In this document: positions 1,031 to 64,000 of the stretch, piece after piece | How the letters are laid out: every line of letters begins with the position of its first letter | Position numbering within the stretch: position 1 is the stretch's first letter | Assembly: GCA_004565275.1 (NCBI GenBank) | Contig: SDOX01000010.1 | Coordinates: 111,338 to 175,337, forward strand | Direction: 5' to 3' | Length of the DNA: 64,000 nucleotides | DNA from: Nannochloropsis salina CCMP1776 | Lineage: Eukaryota > Sar > Eustigmatophyceae > Eustigmatales > Monodopsidaceae | Position numbers and translations under genes: made by a program | The notes under the pieces: generated by a model | Told to the model about the DNA's origin: nothing | Seen by the model: only the letters and a program-made list of their open reading frames with translations | The model's database searches: none

Positions 1031-2319
1031 CACATTACTTTGCCTTTTTTCCCCTCACCTTTCGTACGATTATCCTTGGTGATTCATGCGAGCTGGTAGA
1101 GACTAGATCTGTATTTAGATTAGAATCTGCTTGTATGAACATATGTCTCTTGGTGTCTCAATTGTGTTTGATATTCTTGTATTTACATTTTTTGGGTTCG
1201 AAGCCGTCACTTGTTAGAATTTAAATTGTTTCTGATTGAGCAAAATGTTAAATGCGAATCCTTGACAAGGCAAAGTTGTTTATGTAGTTTTCTATTTAGT
1301 TGCTGAAAATTTGAAATCCATTTTCGGGAGATATGTTGCTTTTAGACTTAGAAATGCGACGGCAGCTTGGCTGCAGAGGAAAAAAAAGTTGACGTAGCCA
1401 AAATTCAGGCGGTGGGGAACGAGTCGGTTTTGATGGCTTCGCTACGCGATACATGTAGCATCCTCTAGGGGATGCCAAAAGTGGCGTATTATAGATAGGC
1501 CACTAGGAGACCTTGACTTCAAACCCGATAGAGGAGAACGGCGACCGTGGTGGTGCTGAGCAAAGCAAGCGATAGGAAGCCTTTGTGGTTTTAGAAACCC
1601 CGATTTGTGTATAAGAAAAGTCATTGGCATCGAATGTACCGCGTGCCTGCTAGTCACTGTCTACAGAATGGACCACATGTCTTAGGATAAGCAGGATTGC
1701 GGGATAAAAGAGCGATCGTTCGAGTTTCGAGACGCCGCAGGGTACAAGAGAGAGGTAGCTTGCATGTTTTTTAGCTTTTGAGCAAGAGATAAGAGGAGGA
1801 CAAGGACGAGTTTGTGTGCTTGAGGTATCGGTTATTGAATTGTTGAAGGCGCCCGTGACTTCTCCACATTGGCAACTCGACCCCGCGAGCCCGAAAACGA
1901 TACACAAGTGTAATATTATTTGCCCTCTTCCCGCAAGGAGTGAACGAGCAATCGATGGCCGACTAAGAAGTAAAATTTGAGATCAAGCAAAAACCAGCCA
2001 ATTATGGGAAAACGAGAGAGCGAATGGAAGAAGAGGGATGGATGGAAATGAAACCACTGCGCAAGGATCTCTTGAACCCAAAAAGCAGAAATTGCGAGCA
2101 GGACGATGCCGGACATGGTACCACTGACAGGCAAAGCTTCTATTGTATGCAAATTTCGTTGATGCTATGAAAAGAATGGGTGAAGTTTCGAATTACTTCC
2201 CTTCATGTGATCCAATGGCTCTGGCAAAAACGGATCGAAAAGCTGTCTTCCTCGTCGCCAACACCGACCATAGCACTTGCCAGCAAACGGGGCAATGTGC
2301 TTTCTATCCCCCTGTCCCA
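1031..2319. other. Intergenic region
   Basis: Base composition drops to more AT-rich sequence after about 1030. Short open frames on the minus strand (1296-2152) resemble no family and have no convincing splice signals. The right end is the 3' flank of the minus-strand phospholipase D gene. I see no RNA gene or repeat here. Confidence 0.5.
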
Positions 2320-5300
2320 TCACAGGCTCCATCCCTGAAGCCCGTTTACGGGCCGCAAGGAGGTTAAATCGTCCGCCAGAAACTCTTTCGGGTATTCAAC
2401 CAGGTGTCCCTGGAGCCGACCCAGCCACTTCAACTTCTCCTTGACAGCGTCTCGGTGCTCCCCCCCCCGGATCATCCCCCCCACGTCCTCAAACGTGCCT
2501 CCATCGTTCTGTCCTTCCTCTTCTTTCAAGAGCGCATCCATCAAAATTTCTTCCTCCTCCTGGGCCCGCTCTTCTCCCAGCACTTCCTCGACAAATGTCC
2601 GGGTAGCCTCCGAGACCGTGCCGTCCACGACCACGTGCTTAAGCGCCTCGATGCTTCGCACTGTGTGGGCGGGCAATGCCTGCGGAAAGACGTGCGCCAG
2701 GATGGCCGTGTTCTTTCGAGCCACCCGGCGGAGGTAGGCCCAGGTGGCCGCACCAGACGGATCCAGCAACGGTGCGTACACTTCCTCAGGCGCAGGCTCG
2801 TGGTCGAGGAGTTCTTCCCTGCCGTCCTCCATCATGGCGGCTTCCAGCACCCGCCGTTGCACGTACTCGTCCAAGAGGCCGACGTGCTCGCCCCACAGGC
2901 GCAAGCGCAGGGAGCGGGCAAAGCGACCGGCGTGATAGTCCGCGTGATTCATAGCCCCGGGCTCCCAGACCGTGTCCTCCAACACCAAGGCCATCTCGCT
3001 GTCCCGCGTGCCCATCAAGGAGCGGTCGTTCAAAGCGGCGGAGCCCAGGACCACGTATCGGTCGTCCGCCACGAGCAATCTGCTGTTGACGAAGATCTGT
3101 TCGGACACCAAGTGGGGAGCCAGTCCCTTCCCAGGATCCCCGTTCAAGCGTGTGTAGGAACGAAGGCCGAAGAATTGCAAGTATTCGTCGGGACGGGGCA
3201 CCATGTCCTGGAGGCGGCGCCAGAGCGTGTTGACGGAGTTTAGCTGCTGGTATAGGGCGGAGGTCAGCATGGGCGGGGTGGCGCCGTGCAAGCCTCCTTC
3301 GTACACAGGGAGGAGGGGGAGGAGGAAGACGACACGAAAGGTCTCCTGGCTGTCGTGCGCTCGGACAATGCGGTTCAAGAGGGCCTCGGCCAGCCGGTTG
3401 CTCACATCCGCGGTGCCCTGGACCCCGCTGATGAAGGTGGGGTTCTCGAAGTACAGGTAGTGCTCGGCGTTGGAGATGACCTGTTCGTAGGCTTCCAAGA
3501 CGCTGCGCTGGGGCTCTAGCAGGGCCCCGCTCCATGCACCCAGGCTCCGGACCACCCGGCAGTGGCAGGAGGCCAAGGGACCGAGGGACACTTCTTCTTC
3601 CTCCTCCGCTTCCAGTTCCCGCACGTGCAGTGCTCGACGGAGACGTAGGTATTGGTACATGCGCTGCTGACGCTTTTGGCCTTGCTGCGAGGTCCCGGTC
3701 CTGTCTTTGGCAGCCTCTGCCAGCAGGTCCAGCTGCTGTTTTGAAGGGGAAGAGGGAGCGGATCCCGACAGAGGAGAGGAATATACTCGGACGTTCTTGT
3801 CTTCTTTCACGTCCCTGCACAGCTGGGGAGAGCGGTGGCTGGAGCTGCTGCTTTTTCGGTCCTGACACCCGACCGCATCATCCTCCACCTCTTCATTCAT
3901 CGCCCACCCCCGGGGCGGGTGCCGCCGAGGGAAGGACAAGGACGTCTTCGTGTCTACCTCCTCGTTTGCCCATGAGCGACTGGCAGGAGGGGCCATGGGC
4001 GGCTCGACCAGAGCTTGGAATTGCAAGACTTGGCATTGACTGGTCAGATTCACGTCATGCTGCAATTCGAGCAGGCGCCGTTGTCGCCGCTCTTTTCGGG
4101 GTCTCAACCATTCCTTCAGCTTTTGGCTGGCCTCTTGCTCCACTGCATCGAACACGTCCCGGGGGGGTCCGCCGTGGTCCTCCTCGGTGGAAGGGACGGG
4201 GCGGGCAACGCTGGAGGCGGTGCCGAAGACGAGGCGGGTGACGGTTTTCCGAGCCAAGCCATCCACCCCGACCGGACCATCCGTTTCGGCGCTGCTTGTG
4301 TCCGCCTGATTGTGGCTGGGAAGGTGGTGTGGGGGGATGCCGCCCGCCGGGGAGGGCCCCACCCTCAGGCGCACTGGGAGCAAGGGGGGAGGTAGGGCAA
4401 AGGCGAATTCTTCCTGACGCAGGCGGGCGTTGGGGATGGCGTGGCGCGCCTCCATTTCTCGCGCCCGTTCCAAATTCCATTGGTTCACAAAGTGCCAGCA
4501 CAGGTCGTGGCAGGCACTGCCCGTGACGGCCACGCAGGCTGTGTGTTGGGGCAGGCGGGGCACCGTGCCCCGATGATGGTAAGGAAGCTCCTGGGACGTA
4601 TGGGCGAGCTCCACCAGGCACATGTCCTTGACCAGCGGATTCTGGTAGTCTCGGCCGCACCATGTAGGTCGGCGTGCCTGGACTCCCGTTCCCGGACGGG
4701 CTTGGGCATCCTGCACGCGTCGCGGGGCCACCGCCGCCTCGTCTTTGAGCACGTGCTGCGGGGTGTCGAATTTTCCCAGCCCGAAGGAGAGCCCGGAGCC
4801 CACAAAACCCACCTCCTGGTCCACGCACAGGAGCGTCTCGTTTCTAATCCAGGCATGGGGAAAGGGGGCAGGGCGGGTGCGCAAGACGTGGATATGGCCC
4901 ATATGGGCCAAGGCCATCAAGCGCGCCTGGGTTTCTCGGCTCTTCCACTGGAGGTTTCCCCCTTCCGGTTCTTGAAAGAGCAGGACGGAAATTCGAACCC
5001 CTTCCGCCGCTTTTTTCTCCAAAAGCCGATCCAACCGGGAAGCAGGAAAGCGATGGGGCGGGCGCAATAAGTACAACTCCGGACACACCCAAGGCGCCGA
5101 CAGAAAAATGGAGCGCCTAGCACCCTGGATTGCCGCTTCCATGCTTCGGTAGGCAGCAGCACCGTCCACAAACCACTGGGCTGTGCTCTGAGCGCTGTCA
5201 TCCAAGTAGGAGAGGGGCAACGAGCGTGCAAACTCGAAACGGTTCCGTTCCACCCATGGGGAGGCCTTCAAGACCGAGGCCAAGGTCGCCGCCCATTCCC

Positions 5301-6885
5301 GCTGTTCAAGCCGGGACCGGAAGGTGAGCTGGAAATGCCAGTGGGGATTGATGAGCACCAGGCACCGTGGGGCTTCGAAGATGGCGGCTTGGAGGGTAGT
5401 GCCCGTGTCGAAGAGCAAGACGGCTTCGGGGGTATTGGCCTCCGCCACATCCGCGGAGCGACCCCGCTTGACGTGGGGCGGATGGAAGCCTCCGTCTTTG
5501 TAGATGGCCAAGTAGGAAGATTTGAGTACGGCCCATCCCTCCCTCAGCTTCGATGCTCTGTAGGGCCCCCGCTTACCCAACGCACTGAATCCCAGCGGTG
5601 AGCCCCCCAGCGGATCCAGTCCCTCCAGGTCCATGCCTCCCTCGTCCTCTCGGCCCCCCTGTAGGCGGTGGTCCCCCTCTCGGGACCGCCAAGCGCAGGT
5701 CAGCACCCTCCCTTCCCGGTGGGAGGGCCCCCCCGACCGGTCAAACGTGTAGGGGCTGACTTGCAGGAGCGCGAGGAGCTGGGGACAGTGCCGGTTGACC
5801 ACGTCCTCGAGCACCGTCCGGACATATTGTTCGCAAGCGGTGCGTTGGTGGGCGAGGGAGACAGGATCCGTCAAGCGGGCCTGGGCGGGCGTCAGAGGAC
5901 AGCGCAGATCGCCGGACCGGGGGCTAGGGGAGACGGGTTTCCGAGAGGAGAAGGAAGTCCGGTGCGACAGCCTGGCCCATCGACGTTCGCGTTCCTGTGC
6001 CGCCTCTTCTCGACGCTGCTGCAAGCGGGCCTGGCGCAGGCGCCATCGTACGTTTCCTCGGTCGAGCTCCTGAGGGTCCAACTCGTCACCCTGGGGCCCA
6101 TGCCGGGGAGGCAAGTCGTCTCCCACGTCTTCCTCCGACGGTGTTTCTTCTGCCGACAGAGGAGGAGCTGAGACGGCGTTTCGTTGAACGTGCCTGTCCC
6201 AGGACGCGCGTTCACGCCCACGGCCCCGTGAATTGCGGGCAGGTCGCCAGCCGACGCCCGTCCCTTCTTGGGTCTCCCCTACCGCCTCTTCATAGGAAAG
6301 GTCGCAAGCATAAGACCACCCGTCCACGTAGTCATCATCTTTTGAATGTGTCCTCGGGCGGGGTTTCACCCTTTGCGCATGTTTGTGACTTGGTGGTCGT
6401 GTCTTGGAGCGCTGTGGGTTCAACGGCGGGATAAGCGACCGAAAAAAGAAGACCTTCCAACGCCAGCGCCTGAGGGCTGTTGCCAAATCGTTCAATTGGG
6501 CCCAATGAATGGACACATGCCATCTCCATGCATTTAATTCCAAACAAAGGGTGTGGAGGACCAAATCTCCGGGTTCGTTTTTGTTGATGATGTTTTGGTT
6601 GTTGTGCGGGGTTGTGGTGATGGCGTAGACGGCATGCGAGCTCGTACTATTTATGGTGCTGCTGTTACCAGTGCCTTGTGCAGGAATAACCGTTGATCTT
6701 ATAATGCGGACTGAAGGTGGAGCCTCATGCAGGGGATTTACTGCCATCACTCCTCCAGGTACTCTTCTCTGTTGTGAGGTGACGCAAGAAAAAAAGGCGC
6801 CGGATTCAGAACATACGAAAGTGGTTCTTGGACCAACACATTCTGCCTTGTTTTGAAGTCCAAGCCTATATGAAACTTCTCTCAA
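2320..6885 (-). CDS. Phospholipase D-family protein (PX/PH type) with degenerate HKD motifs
   Basis: One uninterrupted frame of 1521 codons matches eukaryotic PX-PH phospholipase D along its length. A PX remnant (about residues 320-380, ending LLALLQVSPYTF) leads into a PH domain (about 440-540, with FQLTFRSRLEQREWAATL). The first catalytic half (about 545-800) holds AQWFVDG, CPELYLLRP and FGLGKFDTP. A low-complexity insert follows, then the second half (about 1085-1350) with ENPTFISG, FLLPLLPVYEGG, NDRSLMGTRDSE and a family-like end, LVEYPKEFL. Active enzymes carry HxKxxxxD twice. Here the matching positions read N-E-T-L-L-C-V-D (residue 682) and N-S-R-L-L-V-A-D (residue 1267), so both nucleophilic or acid histidines are Asn. 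The fold looks kept but catalysis is doubtful. A phosphoinositide-binding pseudoenzyme is possible. The first 100-150 residues resemble no domain, so the true start may lie further in. Confidence 0.9.
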   Translation of the reverse strand: MREVSYRLGLQNKAECVGPRTTFVCSESGAFFSCVTSQQRRVPGGVMAVNPLHEAPPSVRIIRSTVIPAQGTGNSSTINSTSSHAVYAITTTPHNNQNIINKNEPGDLVLHTLCLELNAWRWHVSIHWAQLNDLATALRRWRWKVFFFRSLIPPLNPQRSKTRPPSHKHAQRVKPRPRTHSKDDDYVDGWSYACDLSYEEAVGETQEGTGVGWRPARNSRGRGRERASWDRHVQRNAVSAPPLSAEETPSEEDVGDDLPPRHGPQGDELDPQELDRGNVRWRLRQARLQQRREEAAQERERRWARLSHRTSFSSRKPVSPSPRSGDLRCPLTPAQARLTDPVSLAHQRTACEQYVRTVLEDVVNRHCPQLLALLQVSPYTFDRSGGPSHREGRVLTCAWRSREGDHRLQGGREDEGGMDLEGLDPLGGSPLGFSALGKRGPYRASKLREGWAVLKSSYLAIYKDGGFHPPHVKRGRSADVAEANTPEAVLLFDTGTTLQAAIFEAPRCLVLINPHWHFQLTFRSRLEQREWAATLASVLKASPWVERNRFEFARSLPLSYLDDSAQSTAQWFVDGAAAYRSMEAAIQGARRSIFLSAPWVCPELYLLRPPHRFPASRLDRLLEKKAAEGVRISVLLFQEPEGGNLQWKSRETQARLMALAHMGHIHVLRTRPAPFPHAWIRNETLLCVDQEVGFVGSGLSFGLGKFDTPQHVLKDEAAVAPRRVQDAQARPGTGVQARRPTWCGRDYQNPLVKDMCLVELAHTSQELPYHHRGTVPRLPQHTACVAVTGSACHDLCWHFVNQWNLERAREMEARHAIPNARLRQEEFAFALPPPLLPVRLRVGPSPAGGIPPHHLPSHNQADTSSAETDGPVGVDGLARKTVTRLVFGTASSVARPVPSTEEDHGGPPRDVFDAVEQEASQKLKEWLRPRKERRQRRLLELQHDVNLTSQCQVLQFQALVEPPMAPPASRSWANEEVDTKTSLSFPRRHPPRGWAMNEEVEDDAVGCQDRKSSSSSHRSPQLCRDVKEDKNVRVYSSPLSGSAPSSPSKQQLDLLAEAAKDRTGTSQQGQKRQQRMYQYLRLRRALHVRELEAEEEEEVSLGPLASCHCRVVRSLGAWSGALLEPQRSVLEAYEQVISNAEHYLYFENPTFISGVQGTADVSNRLAEALLNRIVRAHDSQETFRVVFLLPLLPVYEGGLHGATPPMLTSALYQQLNSVNTLWRRLQDMVPRPDEYLQFFGLRSYTRLNGDPGKGLAPHLVSEQIFVNSRLLVADDRYVVLGSAALNDRSLMGTRDSEMALVLEDTVWEPGAMNHADYHAGRFARSLRLRLWGEHVGLLDEYVQRRVLEAAMMEDGREELLDHEPAPEEVYAPLLDPSGAATWAYLRRVARKNTAILAHVFPQALPAHTVRSIEALKHVVVDGTVSEATRTFVEEVLGEERAQEEEEILMDALLKEEEGQNDGGTFEDVGGMIRGGEHRDAVKEKLKWLGRLQGHLVEYPKEFLADDLTSLRPVNGLQGWSL

Positions 6886-7143
6886 TATTCATCAAATTGA
6901 GATCTAATGAACCCACCGCCACCGTTGATTCAAGCGTATATTTCCCAGGGATTTTGGCCTGGGATATGATGGGCCTTGCCGCCTGACCCGAAATTCAAAA
7001 TTTCCGGGGGAGGCGTAACGGTTTTCTGTTAAAATTCTATTTCAGGGAGGGAGGTTTGTTGGATCCACGCCTATTAAGTAGAAGACGTCGTGTGCACGAT
7101 CTTCGTGACAAGCATGTGACAGTAATTGATCATATAGCTCCAC
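6886..7143. other. Divergent intergenic region
   Basis: This short spacer lies between the 5' ends of the minus-strand phospholipase D and the plus-strand PAP2-type gene, so it probably holds both promoters. No clear TATA box or other named element was recognised. Confidence 0.45.
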
Positions 7144-8583
7144 ATGTACTTGGTCGATGATATTCTTCATCTTGTAGGTGATCATAATAATTTTTACTCT
7201 CGTTGTCCGTCATACGCACAGATGGCAAATAAGCAGCTACCACAATTGATTTGGCTGCCATCGCTGCCCACATTTACTGAGGACACGCAGGAAATCAAAA
7301 ATGAAGCCCACGATTTTTCGTTTCAGCCAAGACCCTTCATGGTGCCCGAATCGGCACAATACGAGTATGCCGCATTTCCGCGTCAGGCTTCACCTCAACC
7401 TAATAGAGTCCAATTTTTAACATCTGACAGCATTTGCAAGTCCAGTCGTCACATAAAATGGAGTCTTCGCTTGGAGTGGTTACTTTTACGTCGAGTCTGG
7501 GTGTGGCTCGTAGGTTTCGCTTTCATATAGTATTTGCACCTTGTTGCCCGCAATCTCGTTTATTACGCACAAGGGAAAGCATACCACTACCCGCACAGCG
7601 ACTCCACTTGGCGTCATCATCCACCAGTTGACTTTCCCTATCCACCAATCGAAGATCTGGGTTTCACGGCCTTCCATGCTGGAGATCTACTGCCTACCTC
7701 TTTGGAGTGGCTTACCACTTTTTTTGTCAGCTCTCTGGCCGCCCTTATGTTGCTCCTGTGGCTTGCTCGCATATTTCTCAATGTTCGATTCGGTGGACCT
7801 AAAATAGCACTAACAGTGCAAAATACTGAAAATAGACCCATCATTATCCTGCCGACACCGCTTGCCCTAATCATGAGGCGGATGGCTATTGCAGGCATAA
7901 TCGTCATCCCATTAAGGTGCCTGACGTTCCTCGTCACGCTCCTCCCCCCACCCAACCGTCACTGTCAGTCTGCCTGGTCTCCTCCAACTACCACGCAGGA
8001 GATTTTTAACGCTTTTCGTTCTCCCCGTGTAGGATGCGGAGACCAGATGTTTTCAGGGCATACCCTGCATGCCGTACTGATCACGAGTATGATATGTCAC
8101 TTCTTCCCTTACCAACATTTCTTGCCCGTATTGGCGATCGCGAATTTGACACTGGTCGGGATTTCTCTTGTTATTTTTCGATATCATTATACGGCTGATG
8201 TCTTAACTGCCATGTACGTGACGTTGGGGGGATGGCTTCTCGTCCCACGGGATCCCAGCACGCTCGACAAGTATGGAGTGCACGTGCATGTCAGGTCGCG
8301 TCCACCAGATTATCTTACGCAGGGCCCTGAGCCATATATTTCCGTAGTGCAAGACTTAGAAAGTGGCGGAGAGTCAAGAGTTCGAGATCTGCAAGAAGAA
8401 GAAGATAGTGCAAGCGACGTTGATGCAAGGGGCATAGAGAGGCTTGCCAATGTTTGTGGGGCGCGGCGACGCAGAGGATCGAACATTCACTATTTACCAC
8501 CCCTTCCTTCTGCACGCCCGGCGCTCGTAGAGGTGGAGGATCGCACGGGAAGTGTGCTCGCGATGGGTCGTCTTCCATGGTAA
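7144..8583 (+). CDS. Sphingomyelin synthase-like / PAP2_C membrane phosphotransferase
   Basis: The protein resembles the sphingomyelin synthase / ceramide phosphotransferase family, which moves a phospho-headgroup onto ceramide in Golgi or plasma membrane. It shows a PPIEDLGF segment after the first membrane span, further hydrophobic spans, the family motif CGDQMFSGHT near 8037, and HYTAD near 8191. Together these supply the His-His-Asp triad. The matching part runs from about 7531 to 8583. An in-frame TAG at 7528-7530 falls inside what should be the first membrane segment, and the same frame stays open upstream to an ATG at 7144. The stop could be removed by splicing, be a sequence error, or mark a disabled gene. 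The real N-terminus is uncertain. The C-terminal 90 residues are hydrophilic and not conserved. Confidence 0.75.
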
Positions 8584-20474: not shown

Positions 20475-21859
20475 CTCACGAAGGAATGAAGCTGTCATAG
20501 TTTTCGCTGCTATTTGACAATGTGCCTTTACCTGTGCTTGTGCAACTCATCCCATACACAAATGAAGGTACACGAACTAATTGTGGGGAAATGGCTTTTA
20601 TGGCACCGCACTCGCAACTGCGATTGACATCGAAGTACCGTCGAAGATGTCCTTACACTCGAATTTGGAACACCATGCTGGTGGGTGTAGGAAGTATACC
20701 CTCATTTTACCGGGAAGCTGATCTTTTCCAAAAACATGTAGGCATGTCTGCGGCATCACGTTTTCCTCTGGCATTGGACTTTTCTTCAGCACTGCTTACA
20801 GCAGATAGAAGTAGCCGTTATCTCGCATACCTTATTTATTTCCTCATTCTCCCTATAAATTCTTATGATGCTTAATCTTACGTTCAACCATTCTGCCACT
20901 AAGCCTTTGATTTTCCCTTATGCGTGGGAAATTTTCCACCGTAGTTCGACACTCCCAAGTAGTCTTGAATGGCTTTAAAAAAATAAAAAGAAGGCTCCTC
21001 CAGTAGCAAACAAATCTATAACAAGCAAAACATGGAATCAGACAAGATTATGTCATGAATAGCGCTGTATGTCTACTTCAAGGCTCCATGCGATGACTCT
21101 ATCAATAGAGAGAAGGCTCAAGTAGCAAACAAATCTATAGCAAGCAAACATGCAAGCAGACGAGATCATGCCATCAAAGAGCACTGTATGTCTAGCTGTA
21201 TGTCTACCGCAAGGCTCCATGCGCTGACTATGAAAGGGACAACGACTCAAGTGACCCTTACCTTCCGACCAAAGCGGACAACACATCGAGTATGCCCACG
21301 CACGGCGCCTGGTTTCATAGTATCGTCACTCTTGCTACTTTGCATTTGCTTTTAATATGAATTGAAGTATGAGTCTGGTCGTAATTCGCACCACTCGTGG
21401 GCATCGTTGGACCTTCCACAGTGAAAGAAGCAGCAGACACCGTAACGATCAGATGGCAGTTGAAGAGAAGTGACGACATCGCAAGAAAAAGACGTTGAGT
21501 CAACGTTAATAACCTTGTCAAGCAAGGTTGTCTACCGACGTCATGCGTACTGGAAAACATTTTGTGCGTCCACATCTGCGTGCGTGCATCCATCATGCAC
21601 ATATGGCTTGTTAATGGAGCATCAAAATCGAGGTGTTGTGACCACAGATTAACTCAGACTTTTCGAGGCACTCCACTTGTGCACACGACCGAGGAGATCT
21701 GTTTCCCTTCTTTCGTCTTACTGGGATAATCCTCGAATACATAGACGCACGAACATGCCTTACCTATCAGATGTACCGATGACTACTCTGTTATGGGTTA
21801 CTTCTCTCTCCACAGCACACACCCTAGGCATAAGACGTCCGACTCACAACACAGATAAT
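20475..21859. other. Intergenic region with a tandem duplication
   Basis: This AT-rich spacer has no convincing coding sequence. It contains the duplicated unit at 21003-21232. Its right part (about 21360-21859) is the 5' flank of the Pro/Thr repeat gene, and a diverged copy of it occurs at 24130-24652. Confidence 0.6.
21003..21232 (+). repeat. Diverged direct tandem duplication, about 105-115 bp unit
   Basis: Two copies (about 21003-21105 and 21121-21232) share AGTAGCAAACAAATCTATA, GCTCCATGCG and the text between, with scattered substitutions. The second copy also carries a short internal repeat of CTGTATGTCTA. No open frame spans them. Confidence 0.8.
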
Positions 21860-23479
21860 ATGCGCGTCTCTTTCGTATCTGCATGCCTCGTTGTACTTGG
21901 CATTGCCTATGCCCCCACTGCAGTCGCGCAGGAATGTCCGACTCTCACCCTCACTGGCAAGGCGCGTCCGGGCCTCAAACGCGGAGTCTTGGCAGGTAAA
22001 GGTCATGCTAGGGTCACCGTCACTCTTCGAAGTAAAGAAGTCGTCGACGATCTCAACTTCAAATTGTTGCTACCGACGGGTTTGTCACTTGTGCGTACCT
22101 CCAGTCGTCCAAAGTCGCGCATTCACCCCGAAGTTGTCGAGAACCCGGACGGATCAACGGCCGTGTTTTGGCTCGGCTTCGACTTTGCGAAAGCCAAAGG
22201 TAACAAGCGTGTTTTCAAAGCCAAAGCTAAAGTCGACGCATGTGCCCCAGAGACTCTGACAGTCACCGGCCTAGCTTATCTGATGAATGCGACAGACCTG
22301 ACGACCTACTGTGCGACGCCGCTGGCAAGTCCCGCAGTCTTGAACGTGCGGTACTCGAAAGCCAAGAAGGTGGCTACATGTGCGCCGACTCCTGCTCCGA
22401 CCGTCAACCCCGCGCAACCCTTTGTGTTGTTTGGCGATGGACAGCGATGTTTGGAAGCAAGCCGACTGGCACCATTCGACGATCGCCGCTTATTGTCGAG
22501 CTCCAACGGACGCGAATACGCGCACTCTATCCACCGTGAGCACCGGCATCTCCAATCGATAGCAACGCCAAGTGAGTGCTTCACATACTGCTCTCTGAAC
22601 GGGGGAGAGTCGGTGCCTTTCTTTTTCAACTGGAACACGGTCACATCCCAGTGCTTCTGCTGCGGGAACGTATGCACGTTGATTGTTGACCCAGCGTTCA
22701 GTACGTATGAAGTGACCGTGGACGCAACAAGCGCTCCAACGGCAGTTTCTACGGCTACTCCTACGCCTGCCCCTACGGCGTCGCCTACACTTACCCCCAC
22801 CGCGTCGCCCACGGCAGTCCCCACGGCATCGCCGACTGCTGCTCCTACTGCATCGCCGACTGCTGCTCCTACTGCATCACCGACTGCTGCTCCCACGACA
22901 TCGCCGACAGCTGCCCCCACGACATCGCCCACTGCTGCTCCTACTGCATCGCCGACTGCTGCCCCCACGACATCGCCGACAGCTGCCCCCACGACATCGC
23001 CGACAGCTGCTCCTACTGCATTGCCCACAGCTGCGCCCACGGCAACCCCGACTGCTGCCCCCACGACATCGCCGACAGCTGCTCCCACGGCAACCCCGAC
23101 TGCTGCTCCTACTGCATCGCCGACTGCTGCCCCTACGACATCGCCCACAGCTGCTCCTACTGCATCGCCGACTGCTGCCCCTACGACATCGCCCACTGCT
23201 GCTCCTACTGCATCGCCGACTGCTGCTCCTACTGCATCGCCGACAGCTGCCCCCACGACATCGCCGACAGCTGCTCCTACTGCATCGCCGACTGCTGCTC
23301 CTACTGCATCGCCGACAGCTGCCCCCACGACATCGCCGACAGCTGCTCCTACTGCATCGCCGACTGCTGCTCCCACGACATCGCCGACAGCTGCTCCCAC
23401 GACATCGTCGACTGCTGCTCCTACTGCATCGCCGACAGCTGCTTCTACTCCATCGCCAACTGCGAACACCCCTCTTTAG
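21860..23479 (+). CDS. Secreted protein with PAN/WSC-like cysteine domain and Pro/Thr/Ser/Ala repeats
   Basis: The 539-residue frame starts at ATG 21860 with a signal peptide, MRVSFVSACLVVLGIAYA, cleaved around AVAQ-E. The next 160 residues form a beta-rich domain of no known family (VTVTLRSKEVVDDLNFKLLL, AVFWLGFDFAKAKG). A six-cysteine module (about 280-345; CFTYCSLNGG, FFFNWN, QCFCCGNVC) resembles PAN/WSC-type carbohydrate-binding modules. The rest is about 27 imperfect repeats of PTASPTAA type. This is typical of an extracellular, probably heavily O-glycosylated, cell-wall or surface protein. The segment 21677-21859 upstream in the same frame is unlikely to be translated, because the signal peptide sits at 21860. 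Confidence 0.75.
   Translation: MRVSFVSACLVVLGIAYAPTAVAQECPTLTLTGKARPGLKRGVLAGKGHARVTVTLRSKEVVDDLNFKLLLPTGLSLVRTSSRPKSRIHPEVVENPDGSTAVFWLGFDFAKAKGNKRVFKAKAKVDACAPETLTVTGLAYLMNATDLTTYCATPLASPAVLNVRYSKAKKVATCAPTPAPTVNPAQPFVLFGDGQRCLEASRLAPFDDRRLLSSSNGREYAHSIHREHRHLQSIATPSECFTYCSLNGGESVPFFFNWNTVTSQCFCCGNVCTLIVDPAFSTYEVTVDATSAPTAVSTATPTPAPTASPTLTPTASPTAVPTASPTAAPTASPTAAPTASPTAAPTTSPTAAPTTSPTAAPTASPTAAPTTSPTAAPTTSPTAAPTALPTAAPTATPTAAPTTSPTAAPTATPTAAPTASPTAAPTTSPTAAPTASPTAAPTTSPTAAPTASPTAAPTASPTAAPTTSPTAAPTASPTAAPTASPTAAPTTSPTAAPTASPTAAPTTSPTAAPTTSSTAAPTASPTAASTPSPTANTPL
22730..23470 (+). repeat. 24-bp coding repeat array (PTASPTAA-type)
   Basis: Units of GCATCGCCGACTGCTGCTCC type, varying between ASP, TSP, ALP and ATP forms, follow one another for about 740 bases. 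Several blocks of 70-100 bases are nearly identical to each other, which suggests recent expansion by unequal exchange. The opposite strand is also open through most of the array, a by-product of the repeat. Confidence 0.95.
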
Positions 23480-31840: not shown

Positions 31841-32700
31841 ATGTTCGGAGCCCCTCTTTTCCAAAATCTGGCAGCCCTGGTGAGGGAGAAAGGTACCGAG
31901 CTGGCAGCGGAGGGGAAGGCCTTGGCAGATAAATTGTCTCTGGACAGGTTGCAAGAGGTAGAAGGGGGGCTCCAGGGAGGGGATAGAAGAAGAAGTTACT
32001 GGAGCGAAGCCGCCCAGGCGCAGGAGGTACGAGTGTCAATCGCGCCCTTCCTCTCCTCCCATTTCCTTTTCCCCTCCCTCCCTCCCTCCCTCCCTCCCTC
32101 CCTCCCTCCCTCCCTCCCTCCCTCCCTTCCTCCCCCCCCCTCCCCCCCTCCCTCCTCATATCATCATCCCATCCTCCCTTGCACCGCTTCGTCCTCCTTT
32201 ATTTCTCATGTTTTCCTCCTTCCTTCCCCCTCAGGACGCTTTGCCATCTCGAAGCGACGTGTATTCCGCCGCCGCCCTTACCCGCGCTAGGGACAGAAGC
32301 GCCCCCCCCCTCGACCCACTTCCTCCCACCCCTTCCCTTCCCGCCCTCCCTCCTTCCCGCCCGCCTCCCCTCCCACCCGCCTCGATCGCAGCCGAAGAGA
32401 GGGACCGTCGCCCTAAAAATGGCGCGAAACCGGGGAAGGAGGAGGAGGTGGAGGAGGTGGAAAGAGACCCTATTATGGCTGCCCTTCGGAGAGGGAGGGA
32501 GGGTAGGAAGGAGGGAGGGAGGGAGGGAGGGAGGGTGGGCGAAGAGGAGGAAGAGGAAGGAGTGGACGTGGAAGCGGCAGTGGCCGAGTCGTTGGCGCTT
32601 TTGAAGAAGAAAGACATGCCTGCCGCACCCTACAACAAAGCAGGAGGAAGGGGTTCAGGGCGGGAGGGAGGGCGGGAGGGCGGGAGGGAGGGCGGGGGGG
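31841..32700 (+). CDS. Unidentified coiled-coil-like protein, truncated by assembly gap
   Basis: I do not recognise the family. Exon 1 (31841-32026) starts MFGAPLFQNLAALVREKG and is helical with Ala/Glu/Lys spacing, ending AAQAQE at a GTACGA donor. Its intron is filled by a (CCCT)n tract of about 60 bases. Exon 2 (from 32235) begins DALPSRSDVYSAAALTRARD, continues through Pro/Arg-rich and GGRE repeats, and reaches VDVEAAVAESLALLKKKDMP and the gap at 32701. A coding-looking stretch after the gap (EDKEKLLSTAQGRRRN, 33058 on) may be its continuation on the same strand. The opening resembles the N-termini of golgin-like coiled-coil proteins, but that is not enough to name it. Confidence 0.55.
32080..32135 (+). 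repeat. (CCCT)n tract in intron 1
   Basis: About eleven perfect CCCT units followed by C-rich sequence, within the intron of the unidentified gene. The next acceptor lies about 100 bases downstream. Confidence 0.9.
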
Positions 32701-33057
32701 NNNNNNNNNNNNNNNNNNNNNNNNNNNNNNNNNNNNNNNNNNNNNNNNNNNNNNNNNNNNNNNNNNNNNNNNNNNNNNNNNNNNNNNNNNNNNNNNNNNN
32801 NNNNNNNNNNNNNNNNNNNNNNNNNNNNNNNNNNNNNNNNNNNNNNNNNNNNNNNNNNNNNNNNNNNNNNNNNNNNNNNNNNNNNNNNNNNNNNNNNNNN
32901 NNNNNNNNNNNNNNNNNNNNNNNNNNNNNNNNNNNNNNNNNNNNNNNNNNNNNNNNNNNNNNNNNNNNNNNNNNNNNNNNNNNNNNNNNNNNNNNNNNNN
33001 NNNNNNNNNNNNNNNNNNNNNNNNNNNNNNNNNNNNNNNNNNNNNNNNNNNNNNNNN
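32701..33057. other. Assembly gap (357 N)
   Basis: The left edge is a GGGA/GGGC tract. The plus-strand unidentified gene enters from the left and the minus-strand CSN5-like gene should enter from the right, so more sequence than 357 bases is probably missing. Confidence 0.99.
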
Positions 33058-33197
33058 GAGGACAAGGAGAAGCTTCTGTCAACGGCTCAAGGGAGACGCA
33101 GGAACACTTCCATTACAGGGTCTGGAAGGAGGTTGCCCACTCCCAACCCTTCCTTCCCTCCCTCCCTCCCTCCCTCCCTCCCTCCCTCCCTCCTCAC

Positions 33198-33903
33198 TCT
33201 TGACTCCAGGGCTTTGCGGCCATGACCTCCTCCAGCCGGTGCTCATTGAATGTGTACCAGGTGTCGCGAGCCTGCGATTTCACGCCTGGCCAAGGAGGAG
33301 GAGAGGGAGGGAAGGAGAAGGGGAGGGAGGGAAGGAAGGAAGGAAGGAGGCTGTTTTGTTATGTTCTTGATCTGACTTTGTCTGATATAGGTCACCAACG
33401 CTTGAAGAATAGGCGCACGGAGGGACGGACAAGAGCAGGCACATCACATTTACATGTGAATAAACACATATATATGTTTATATTTATATATCCACATCTC
33501 TCCAAGCAAGAACAGGCACACCATATATATATATTCACATCTCTCTATATATTTATCGTCTCATTTCCTTCCGAGAATCAGGCTGCTTGCTTCCAGTCCA
33601 TGTCGCACCGAGGAATCTGACCAAGGCCCCCCCATATCAGCTCTCTTCCACCCCTACAAATCCATCCAGACACAACGTAGCACCTTAATTTTCACTTCGT
33701 TCCCCTGCTTCACCCTTGTCTTAAAGGAATGCGTGCTTCATACATGGAACCTCCCCGCTCGTATTCCCCTGTCTTTTTGGCTTACCTGCTGCGGTGGATG
33801 CATTCCCCGCTTGCGCGTGCCCTGTTGAATGGTTACTGCCACCACTTGTGGTGGAGGTGGAAGAAGAAGACGTGGCTGCAGCAGCCCCCCCGGGAGTGAC
33901 CAT
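33198..33903 (-). CDS. 5' exons of a CSN5-like (COP9 signalosome / JAMM) gene, truncated by gap
   Basis: CSN5 is the JAMM metalloprotease subunit of the COP9 signalosome, which removes NEDD8 from cullins. Exon 1 (33903-33786) starts at an ATG, encodes a Ser/Thr/Ala-rich leader (MVTPGGAAAATSSSSTSTTS), and ends at a GTAAGC donor in phase 1. Exon 2 (33285-33198) follows a ccag acceptor in phase 1 and reads GVKSQARDTWYTFNEHRLEE, then VMAAKPWSQ. This resembles the segment before the JAMM domain of CSN5 (TWEL..., then IYKYD, then LAAKPW). A GTGAGG donor follows. The catalytic domain with its HxHxxxD motif is not visible and would lie in the gap to the left. The identification rests on about 25 residues. 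Confidence 0.5.
33430..33560. repeat. AT microsatellites with a duplicated core
   Basis: CATATATATGTTTATATTTATATAT and CATATATATATATTCACATCTCTC lie 50 bases apart. Each is preceded by GAxCAGGCACA and followed by CACATCTCTC, so a segment of about 60 bases has been duplicated. It is within the first intron of the CSN5-like gene. Confidence 0.7.
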
Positions 33904-61839: not shown

Positions 61840-62226
61840 AGGGGGGTTAGAGGGGCACGTGTGCAGAGAGCACGGATGTTGAGGCGCGGAAAGCGTGTAC
61901 ATACCACAGACAGTACGTGGAAAAAAGCAACCATCTTTGTCATGCGCGCTGAGGACGGGGGCGGGGGGGGCGGGAGGTTCAGAAACACCGCCCGGCCCAC
62001 TGCCTTGCTCCAGGTTCGCTCAGACCCTTCAAGCCATATCAGGCATGAAAACCTTTTTCGATATCCTCGTGCAACTTTCTTTCTTGGTGTATCATACTTT
62101 TACAAGAGCGCAATTAAAGTCTCCGTCACAGCCATTGCCTGTGACCCCGGGTCCCTCCTCTCCCTCGCACCCCTCCCCTTCCCTCCATCGCCCCGCCCCA
62201 TCCTCTTCATGGAAAAAAAGAAGACA
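61840..62226. other. Convergent intergenic region
   Basis: This is the 3' flank of SFT2 and of the acidic protein gene. Nothing else was seen. Confidence 0.5.
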
Positions 62227-62704
62227 TCACCGGGGCAAGGCGATGCCGCCAAAGTCATCCGACACCGACTGTCCCTGCCCCACTCCCTCCAAAAAGGCCG
62301 TCACGTTCCCTGGCACCAGGTCGCTGTACAGGAATTCGTCCAGTTTTTCCACCTCCCCCTCCGGCCCGACCACCCCCTTGCTCACCACCGTCGGCCGCGG
62401 CGTCGCTGTGGACATCTGGCTGCTCCTGCCCGCCCCTCCCTCGCGGCGGCTGTCGCTGCTGTGGCTCCGGGTACTCGGTCCATCGCCCATGACCGCCCGG
62501 GTCAGAGGGTCCAGGAGGGAGAGGAAGTTGTCAAGCTTTCCCTGAACCGCCTCCATCGGCTCGACCTCCTCCTCCTCCTCCTCCCCTTCCTCCTCCTCCG
62601 TATCCTCATCGTCATCGACCCCCGCCTCCTCCTCCCCCTCCTCCTCCTCCTCCTCCTCCCCCCCTCCTTCCCGCGCCTCCCCCCAATCATCGTCATCCCA
62701 CCCG

Positions 62705-62736
<32 letters not shown>

Positions 62737-64000
62737 CTCTCCCTCTACCATCTCTTCCACCCCCCCTTCCTCCCTCCCTCCTTTCCACCTTCCCTCCCAC
62801 TCTTCGTCTTTCGCGCCGTAGCCTTCCTCGTAGTAGGAGGGCTCTCCATGGGCCGCCCGCCGAATGTCGTCCTCCCGGGCCGCGTCGATTTCTCGGTAAA
62901 GCTTGCCTGGGGGAAGGGAAGGAGGGAAGGGAGGGAGGGAGGGAGGGAGGGAGGGAGGAACAGTGAGNNNNNNNNNNNNNNNNNNNNNNNNNNNNNNNNN
63001 NNNNNNNNNNNNNNNNNNNNNNNNNNNNNNNNNNNNNNNNNNNNNNNNNNNNNNNNNNNNNNNNNNNNNNNNNNNNNNNNNNNNNNNNNNNNNNNNNNNN
63101 NNNNNNNNNNNNNNNNNNNNNNNNNNNNNNNNNNNNNNNNNNNNNNNNNNNNNNNNNNNNNNNNNNNNNNNNNNNNNNNNNNNNNNNNNNNNNNNNNNNN
63201 NNNNNNNNNNNNNNNNNNNNNNNNNNNNNNNNNNNNNNNNNNNNNNNNNNNNNNNNNNNNNNNNNNNNNNNNNNNNNNNNNNNNNNNNNNNNNNNNNNNN
63301 NNNNNNNNNNNNNNNNNNNNNNNNNNNNNNNNNNNNNNNNNNNNNNNNNNNNNNNNNNNNNNNNNNNNNNNNNNNNNNNNNNNNNNNNNNNNNNNNNNNN
63401 NNNNNNNNNNNNNNNGTCCATCTCCTCCATGTACAGCCAATACAAAACTTCCTCCCTCATCTCTCCCCTTGCCTCCGCCCCCGCCCGGGCCTTTCCTCCC
63501 AGCCGTTTCTTCGGGTGGCCTTCCCCGCCCCGAGAAATTTCCCGGGAAAATTCTCGGTACTCCCTCAGGAGCGCAAGGCAAGTGTCGCCATCGTGTACCG
63601 TCGGGTGAAAGGCGCATAGATCTGCAAAATCGTCTTGCATCTCCAACTGCGCGGTCGAGTAGAGGGAAAGGTCATCCTCCTCCCCCCTCGGGAGGGAGGA
63701 GGAAGAAGGAAGGAGGTCCGGGAGGGAGAAAGCAGCGTCCAGGAGAAGGGGGGCGACGCGACCGAAGCAGGCAATGGCGGAGGGAGGGGAGCTCGGTGGG
63801 CGGCAGGCGTAGTGCCTCAGGTCCTTCAAGGCAGGGAGCCGGCGGGGGGCGGACCGAGGGAAAGGGGAGGAGGAGGGGGAGGACGGGGGCTGCTCTGGCA
63901 CTGCATGCAAGAGACAGCTCACGTCCAGGGTGACGCGGCCCGCGGGGGCATCGTCTGTGATTATGTAGGCGGGCCCCGACGTCGATCCGTACTTCAGAGA
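62227..64000 (-). CDS. Unidentified acidic protein, split by a gap and by the window end
   Basis: I do not recognise this protein. Reading from the right edge it has AYIITDDAPAGRVTLDVSCL, RLPALKDLRHYACRPP and DDLSLYSTAQLEMQDDFADL, then LREYREFSREI and EVLYWLYMEEMD up to the gap (62968-63415). Past the gap comes KLYREIDAAREDDIRRAAHG with PSYYEEGYGAKDEEWE, then a long Glu/Asp run, MEAVQGKLDNFLSLLDPLTR, and a C-terminus KLDEFLYSDLVPGNVTAFLE ending at 62227. The acidic middle and Ser-rich stretch suggest a nuclear or regulatory protein, but that is only composition. The N-terminus lies beyond the window. Confidence 0.6.
62968..63415. other. Assembly gap (448 N)
   Basis: The left edge lies a few bases after a (GGGA)n tract (62925-62957). 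The gap interrupts the acidic protein gene. Confidence 0.99.

Follow-up and report, generated by a model that had tools for sequence, protein, structure and literature searches.

A phospholipase D of the PLD1/PLD2 type from Nannochloropsis salina with both HKD histidines replaced by asparagine, a likely pseudoenzyme

The locus and its reading frame

The analysed window (64,000 nucleotides of contig SDOX01000010.1 of Nannochloropsis salina CCMP1776) encodes on its minus strand a protein of the PLD1/2 type in an open reading frame of 1521 codons (2320-6885; phmmer E-value of 2.9e-73 with human PLD2). This frame opens with TTG, and its earliest ATG comes at codon 47 (6747-6745), so that the protein may be 1475 amino acids long. 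The true start possibly lies downstream of the TTG, because G+C is flat by codon position over codons 1-150 (0.47, 0.49 and 0.48) and becomes uneven by position downstream. The 1521 open codons counted in an earlier note on this DNA were borne out, and they far exceed the stop-free runs obtained when the region was resampled 500 times under a first-order Markov model and read in six frames (maximum 572, median 248 codons). With a codon-usage model built from the 1466 codons of five other ORFs, three of which lie in the window, the frame of the gene was the top-scoring one in 9 of 11 scoring intervals, the exceptions being codons 751-900 (narrowly) and the final 21 codons; the score was about zero over codons 1-450. 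Long open frame and codon usage together support a coding gene at this position, which is a statement about coding and not a proof of present selection.

A PAP2_C/PAP2 protein (7534-8583, plus strand; Pfam E-value of 1.1e-11), which we take to be of the sphingomyelin-synthase-like kind, is encoded head to head with this gene. Elsewhere in the window, an ORF on the plus strand (21677-23479) has a C-terminal part with a long Pro-Thr-Ser/Ala repeat of the APTASPTAAPT type. In the genome, a light-harvesting ORF matches PDB chain 8zo9_2 'VCPI-2' (455 bits, 223 residues), a VCP name that points to a eustigmatophyte of the Nannochloropsis type, although no open-licence paper was retrieved for the VCPI name together with Nannochloropsis; Chloroa_b-bind matches number 34. 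The window contains 905 N, and runs of undetermined residues break the ORFs 32208-33203 and 61861-63933.

Family assignment and domain layout

A search of solved structures with the translated ORF gave five distinct sequences under an E-value of 0.01, the best matches being human PLD2 (2.9e-73) and two PLD1 constructs (2.6e-70 and 2.2e-65). Homology to the PLD1/PLD2 family (PXPH-PLD) extends across both catalytic halves. Indeed, in BLASTP against human PLD2 the first half (residues 567-808; 4462..5187, minus strand, as for all features of the gene below) shares 34.5% identity over 249 columns and the second half (residues 1110-1336; 2878..3558) shares 40.5% over 232 columns; the corresponding values with PLD1 are 29.7% and 36.4%. 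The gap between the aligned pieces is a linker without detected homology (residues about 815-1105; 3571..4443), and a C-terminal stretch with LQGHLVEYPKEFL (2338..2424) has a weak match to the PLD2 C-terminus (1.2 bits, alone not significant). A stretch resembling the start of a PX domain (residues 112-150; 6436..6552) and a PH-like stretch in the PH position (residues 440-545; 5251..5568) were recognised by eye, the former against a PX pattern, both lacking a profile match. In Pfam the ORF gave sub-threshold PLDc and PLDc_2 matches, a chance-level DUF2490 match and neither PX nor PH, and in NCBIfam a single chance-level match. Genome searches at E<=10 placed PX at 13 places (12 over the cut-off) and PH at 32 places (24 over the cut-off), none of which is this ORF.

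A tree built from 33 rows gave PLD1 and PLD2 as the closest by path length to the algal protein, which sits on a long branch and within no well-supported grouping, and the tree program warns that the placement of such long branches is unsure. Branch lengths were 2.62 for the algal protein, 0.29 for PLD1, 0.69 for PLD2 and 2.18 for L011, a relative with an intact second HKD motif that is described below. The long branch would also fit relaxed constraint.

State of the active site

The two HKD sites of human PLD1 and PLD2 read HEKxxxxD and HSKxxxxD. At the first site the algal gene reads NETLLCVD (4842-4819; residues 682-689; AAC GAG ACG CTC CTG TGC GTG GAC) and at the second NSRLLVAD (3087-3064, with the Asn codon at 3087-3085; residues 1267-1274; AAC AGC AGA TTG CTC GTG GCG GAC), as the earlier note had reported. 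The alignments set both asparagines on the catalytic histidines of human PLD2 and PLD1, which upholds the proposed replacement of both HKD histidines by asparagine, and likewise that of the first lysine by threonine; the second lysine is replaced by arginine and the motif Asp is kept at both sites. No HxKxxxxD motif occurs in any single frame of 2001-7500 (six frames scanned), and the family's two such motifs are thus both missing from the ORF, for which reason the protein is not classed as an active PLD.

As read from the alignment, the loss at the site exceeds what had been noted before, since the second Lys, the Asp of GGxD, the Asn of GSAN and the equivalents of PLD2 W364 and D542 are changed as well. 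Ser700 (4786..4788) replaces the Asp of GGxD, Pro598 (5092..5094) replaces W364, and PRLPQHT (residues 776-782; 4540..4560) stands in place of PRMPWxD, with Trp replaced by Gln and the Asp corresponding to D542 by Thr. In the second half, FENPTF (3433..3450) replaces IENQFF and GSAALND (3025..3045) replaces GSANIND, with the motif Asn changed to Ala, so that the PXPH-PLD motifs IYIENQFF and IGSANIN read LYFENPTF and LGSAALN. The earlier description of the flanking motifs as well kept (FGLGKFDTP at 4785-4759; NDRSLMGTRDSE at 3030-2995) holds in part, conservation around the first motif being weaker than implied (FGLGKFDTP against LAYGRWDD).

We take H442, K444, H756, K758 and N773 to be the PLD2 numbers of the catalytic His and Lys residues and of the GSxN Asn. 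In these terms, W364, H442, K444, D542, H756, K758 and N773 are changed in the algal protein, and F402, R777 and E786 (the last as E1297) are kept. Passages of PMC11653685 name W364, F402, D542, R777 and E786 as site residues of PLD2 and place the Asp residues of the HKD motifs away from its catalytic site. The algal protein also keeps the NDRS..G.RDSE segment. The three Arg of the PLD2 helix ARDLARHFIQRWNFTK, which follows PRMPW and presumably binds PIP2, are missing from its equivalent CHDLCWHFVNQWNLER, and this loss argues against ordinary (classical) PIP2 control of the algal protein.

Conservation was compared in an alignment of the algal protein with 25 references, namely human PLD1, human PLD2 and 23 bacterial relatives (ORFs with a second-half E-value <1e-35 and a first-half match; the other 16 of 39 loci described below were left out). 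Overall, 41 of the 62 columns invariant in the references were kept. None of the six residues of the HKD sites (His and Lys of each motif, the GGxD Asp and the GSAN Asn) is among those kept (0/6), compared with 41/56 of the remaining columns (Fisher p 9e-4). Counting the motif Asp of both sites as well gives 2/8 against 39/54 (p 0.015). These p-values are a guide only, as the six residues were picked after the sequence had been viewed and many of the bacterial rows are closely related to one another. When the threshold was relaxed to columns with 90% conservation or more, 65/112 were kept, so that residues outside the site have changed too.

Three artefactual readings were considered. Rescue by a frameshift was ruled out by the six-frame scan of 2001-7500. 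Rescue by splicing is unlikely, homology in one frame flanking each site, with the proviso that a single-frame scan would miss a motif split by a junction. Sequencing error was ruled out by the eight replaced site residues (P598, N682, T684, S700, T782, N1267, R1269 and A1284), the codons of several of which, we infer, differ at two bases from the usual ones.

Relatives and other HKD genes

Relatives were sought in a collection of bacterial and archaeal contigs with patterns lying outside the HKD motifs, so that the sample was not biased towards intact HKD sites. This gave 39 loci, all of which (39/39) have at least one HxKxxxx[D/E/N] match and 35 of which have two, the first match being in a doubtful place at one of these 35 (L041). 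Two loci, L011 and L048, have one match each on partial ORFs; at L049 (ORF of 752 aa) the second motif has Lys replaced by Asn (HANVVVADD), and at L037 (ORF of 537 aa) the first HKD motif is not recognisable. Single-site HKD variants therefore exist in nature, and loss of both histidines was seen in 0 of the 39 sampled loci, which are bacterial save for the chimeric L011. No algal orthologue was present among these 39 loci judging by title, and none of any kind was found in the collection of viral contigs.

The L011 contig (1-3580), filed under an Elusimicrobium MAG, has bacterial-type ORFs up to about 3000, followed by an AT-rich fragment of the PLD1/2 type (3001-3579). It looks chimeric, and this fragment, with its intact second HKD motif, is probably eukaryotic.

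In the algal genome itself (26.5 Mb in 103 contigs), the query search found one copy of the gene. No second PLD1/2-type gene was detected in these 26.5 Mb with the query, the human PLD2 halves, PF00614 or PF13091, in searches that were run exon by exon and scored the best candidates only, so that a split or divergent PLD may escape them. The search with the first half of PLD2 gave one C14 place (E-value of 0.26) and that with PF00614 one C2 place with stops (E-value of 1.29). Just one further HKD protein turned up, a PssA/PGS1-like one (L004:1168-3018; PF13091); its motifs HVKTLAFD and HGKGLWLL have His and Lys in both and lack the second Asp. A working paralogue was set aside on this basis, the exon-by-exon searches having given these places and the gene itself only.

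Comparison with known systems

The algal protein has the two-half PLD core in common with human PLD1 and PLD2 and differs from them at the active site, where the His and Lys of the two HKD motifs, the GSxN Asn and the GGxD Asp are replaced, as well as in the long linker between the halves and in that PX and PH lack a profile match. Vertebrate PLD5 is likewise a PLD-family protein without a working HKD, called catalytically inactive in a passage of PMC6008594; its PX and PH are replaced by a putative transmembrane segment (PMC2978679), whereas the protein of the alga is of the PLD1/2 type. The same passage of PMC6008594 describes the FAM83 pseudo-PLDs, which anchor CK1 and in which the pseudo-HKD His is replaced in all except FAM83D; they differ in having one pseudo-HKD in a DUF1669 domain and in being restricted to vertebrates, a separation made here by description and not by sequence.

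Among stramenopiles, Phytophthora has PXPH-PLD, TM-PLD and PLD-like proteins, some subfamilies of which have one modified HKD, and Table 2 of PMC3056787, as printed, has His in both motifs of every protein. In that paper, PXPH-PLDs are stated to occur in all eukaryotes, and the P. infestans PXPH-PLD retains both HKD motifs, IYIENQFF and IGSANIN, unlike the algal protein. For a diatom, a passage of PMC8811913 gives six PLD genes in the transcriptome. Phospholipases D have been identified in Nannochloropsis sensu lato according to a passage of PMC8100218, in which neither their identity nor their activity is stated; this is either a point against a group-wide loss or an annotation of the kind that the present gene would receive. 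The word phospholipase is absent from the main text of the genome papers PMC3499364 and PMC3886936, and among the open-licence literature matches listed for Nannochloropsis PLD and for PLD HKD variants and pseudoenzymes, none describes this protein. PLD pseudoenzymes as such are already known; the new and unusual point is that here the PLD1/2 type is affected, in a genome where no second gene of that type was found.

Interpretation

In PLD chemistry, one HKD His is the nucleophile, the other His is the general acid, and the Lys residues hold the phosphate. With nucleophile, acid and phosphate-holding Lys all altered, this mechanism could not be expected to run in the algal protein. The His and Lys of the two HKD motifs are replaced, as are the GSxN Asn and the matching Asp of the first half, in a two-half PLD core that is still recognisable, so that by sequence the protein shows what defines a pseudoenzyme of the PLD superfamily, namely catalytic residues lost and fold-level homology kept. 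So extensively changed an active site in a gene that otherwise looks maintained likely marks a pseudoenzyme. The earlier note had left the choice between a pseudoenzyme and new chemistry; the former is well supported by the lost site beside the 41 of 56 other invariant columns kept, and the latter is unlikely, as the pocket is changed at many positions.

The reading that we consider probable is that this protein, of PLD1/PLD2 (PXPH-PLD) descent, has become a pseudoenzyme with a non-catalytic job, most likely as a scaffold, and does not make phosphatidic acid. The protein would still be made and fold as a bilobed PLD, it would keep a non-catalytic job of PLDs, most likely that of a membrane-associated scaffold for protein partners, and its gene would no longer yield phosphatidic acid. 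A folded protein with such a job is favoured by the kept core and NDRS..G.RDSE segment, and a scaffold rather than an enzyme is suggested by the replaced chemistry residues together with the lack of a working copy in the genome searches. Recruitment to membranes is a guess, given that neither PX nor PH has a profile match. The scaffold-type role has precedent in the CK1-anchoring FAM83 pseudo-PLDs and in the action of PLD1 on HIF-1alpha, which is independent of lipase activity according to a passage of PMC4323006.

Other readings were weighed against this one. That the gene is decaying, its enzyme function lost and its frame just not yet hit, seems unlikely: the long branch and the 15 of 56 other invariant columns changed (47/112 at the 90% cut) point that way, but the 1521 codons are open, codon usage favours the frame in most intervals, the NDRS..G.RDSE segment is kept, and eight separate site replacements have accumulated without a frameshift or a stop. 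Still less probable is a lipid-binding sensor, in which the dead pocket would bind a phospholipid head group or phosphatidic acid and signal to partners; the recognisable core and the kept equivalents of F402, R777 and E786 are consistent with it, whereas no HKD Lys or His is left, W364 and D542 are replaced too, and the usual head-group contacts are therefore largely gone. An active phosphodiesterase using different chemistry, through Asn, Thr or another residue, is very improbable, as fold-level homology and E1297 are all that speaks for it and the site, with its Lys changed to Thr and Arg, offers no obvious nucleophile or general acid.

Beyond the retained non-catalytic protein that we favour, it may tentatively be proposed, with distinctly less confidence, that this algal lineage has lost the canonical PLD reaction altogether and has kept its sole PLD1/2-type protein as a dead scaffold.

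Implications

Homology-based annotation would label this protein an active PLD, and where the only PLD1/2-type gene detected is naturally dead, phosphatidic acid credited to 'PLD' would need another source. The case for non-catalytic roles of PLD1 and PLD2 has been built mostly on overexpression and on mutants in cultured or other mammalian cells; in a genome of this kind, such a role would become testable by knockout in an alga. If the reading of a lineage-wide loss with a retained scaffold is true, PLD proteins would be shown in nature to have a selectable job without phosphatidic acid production.
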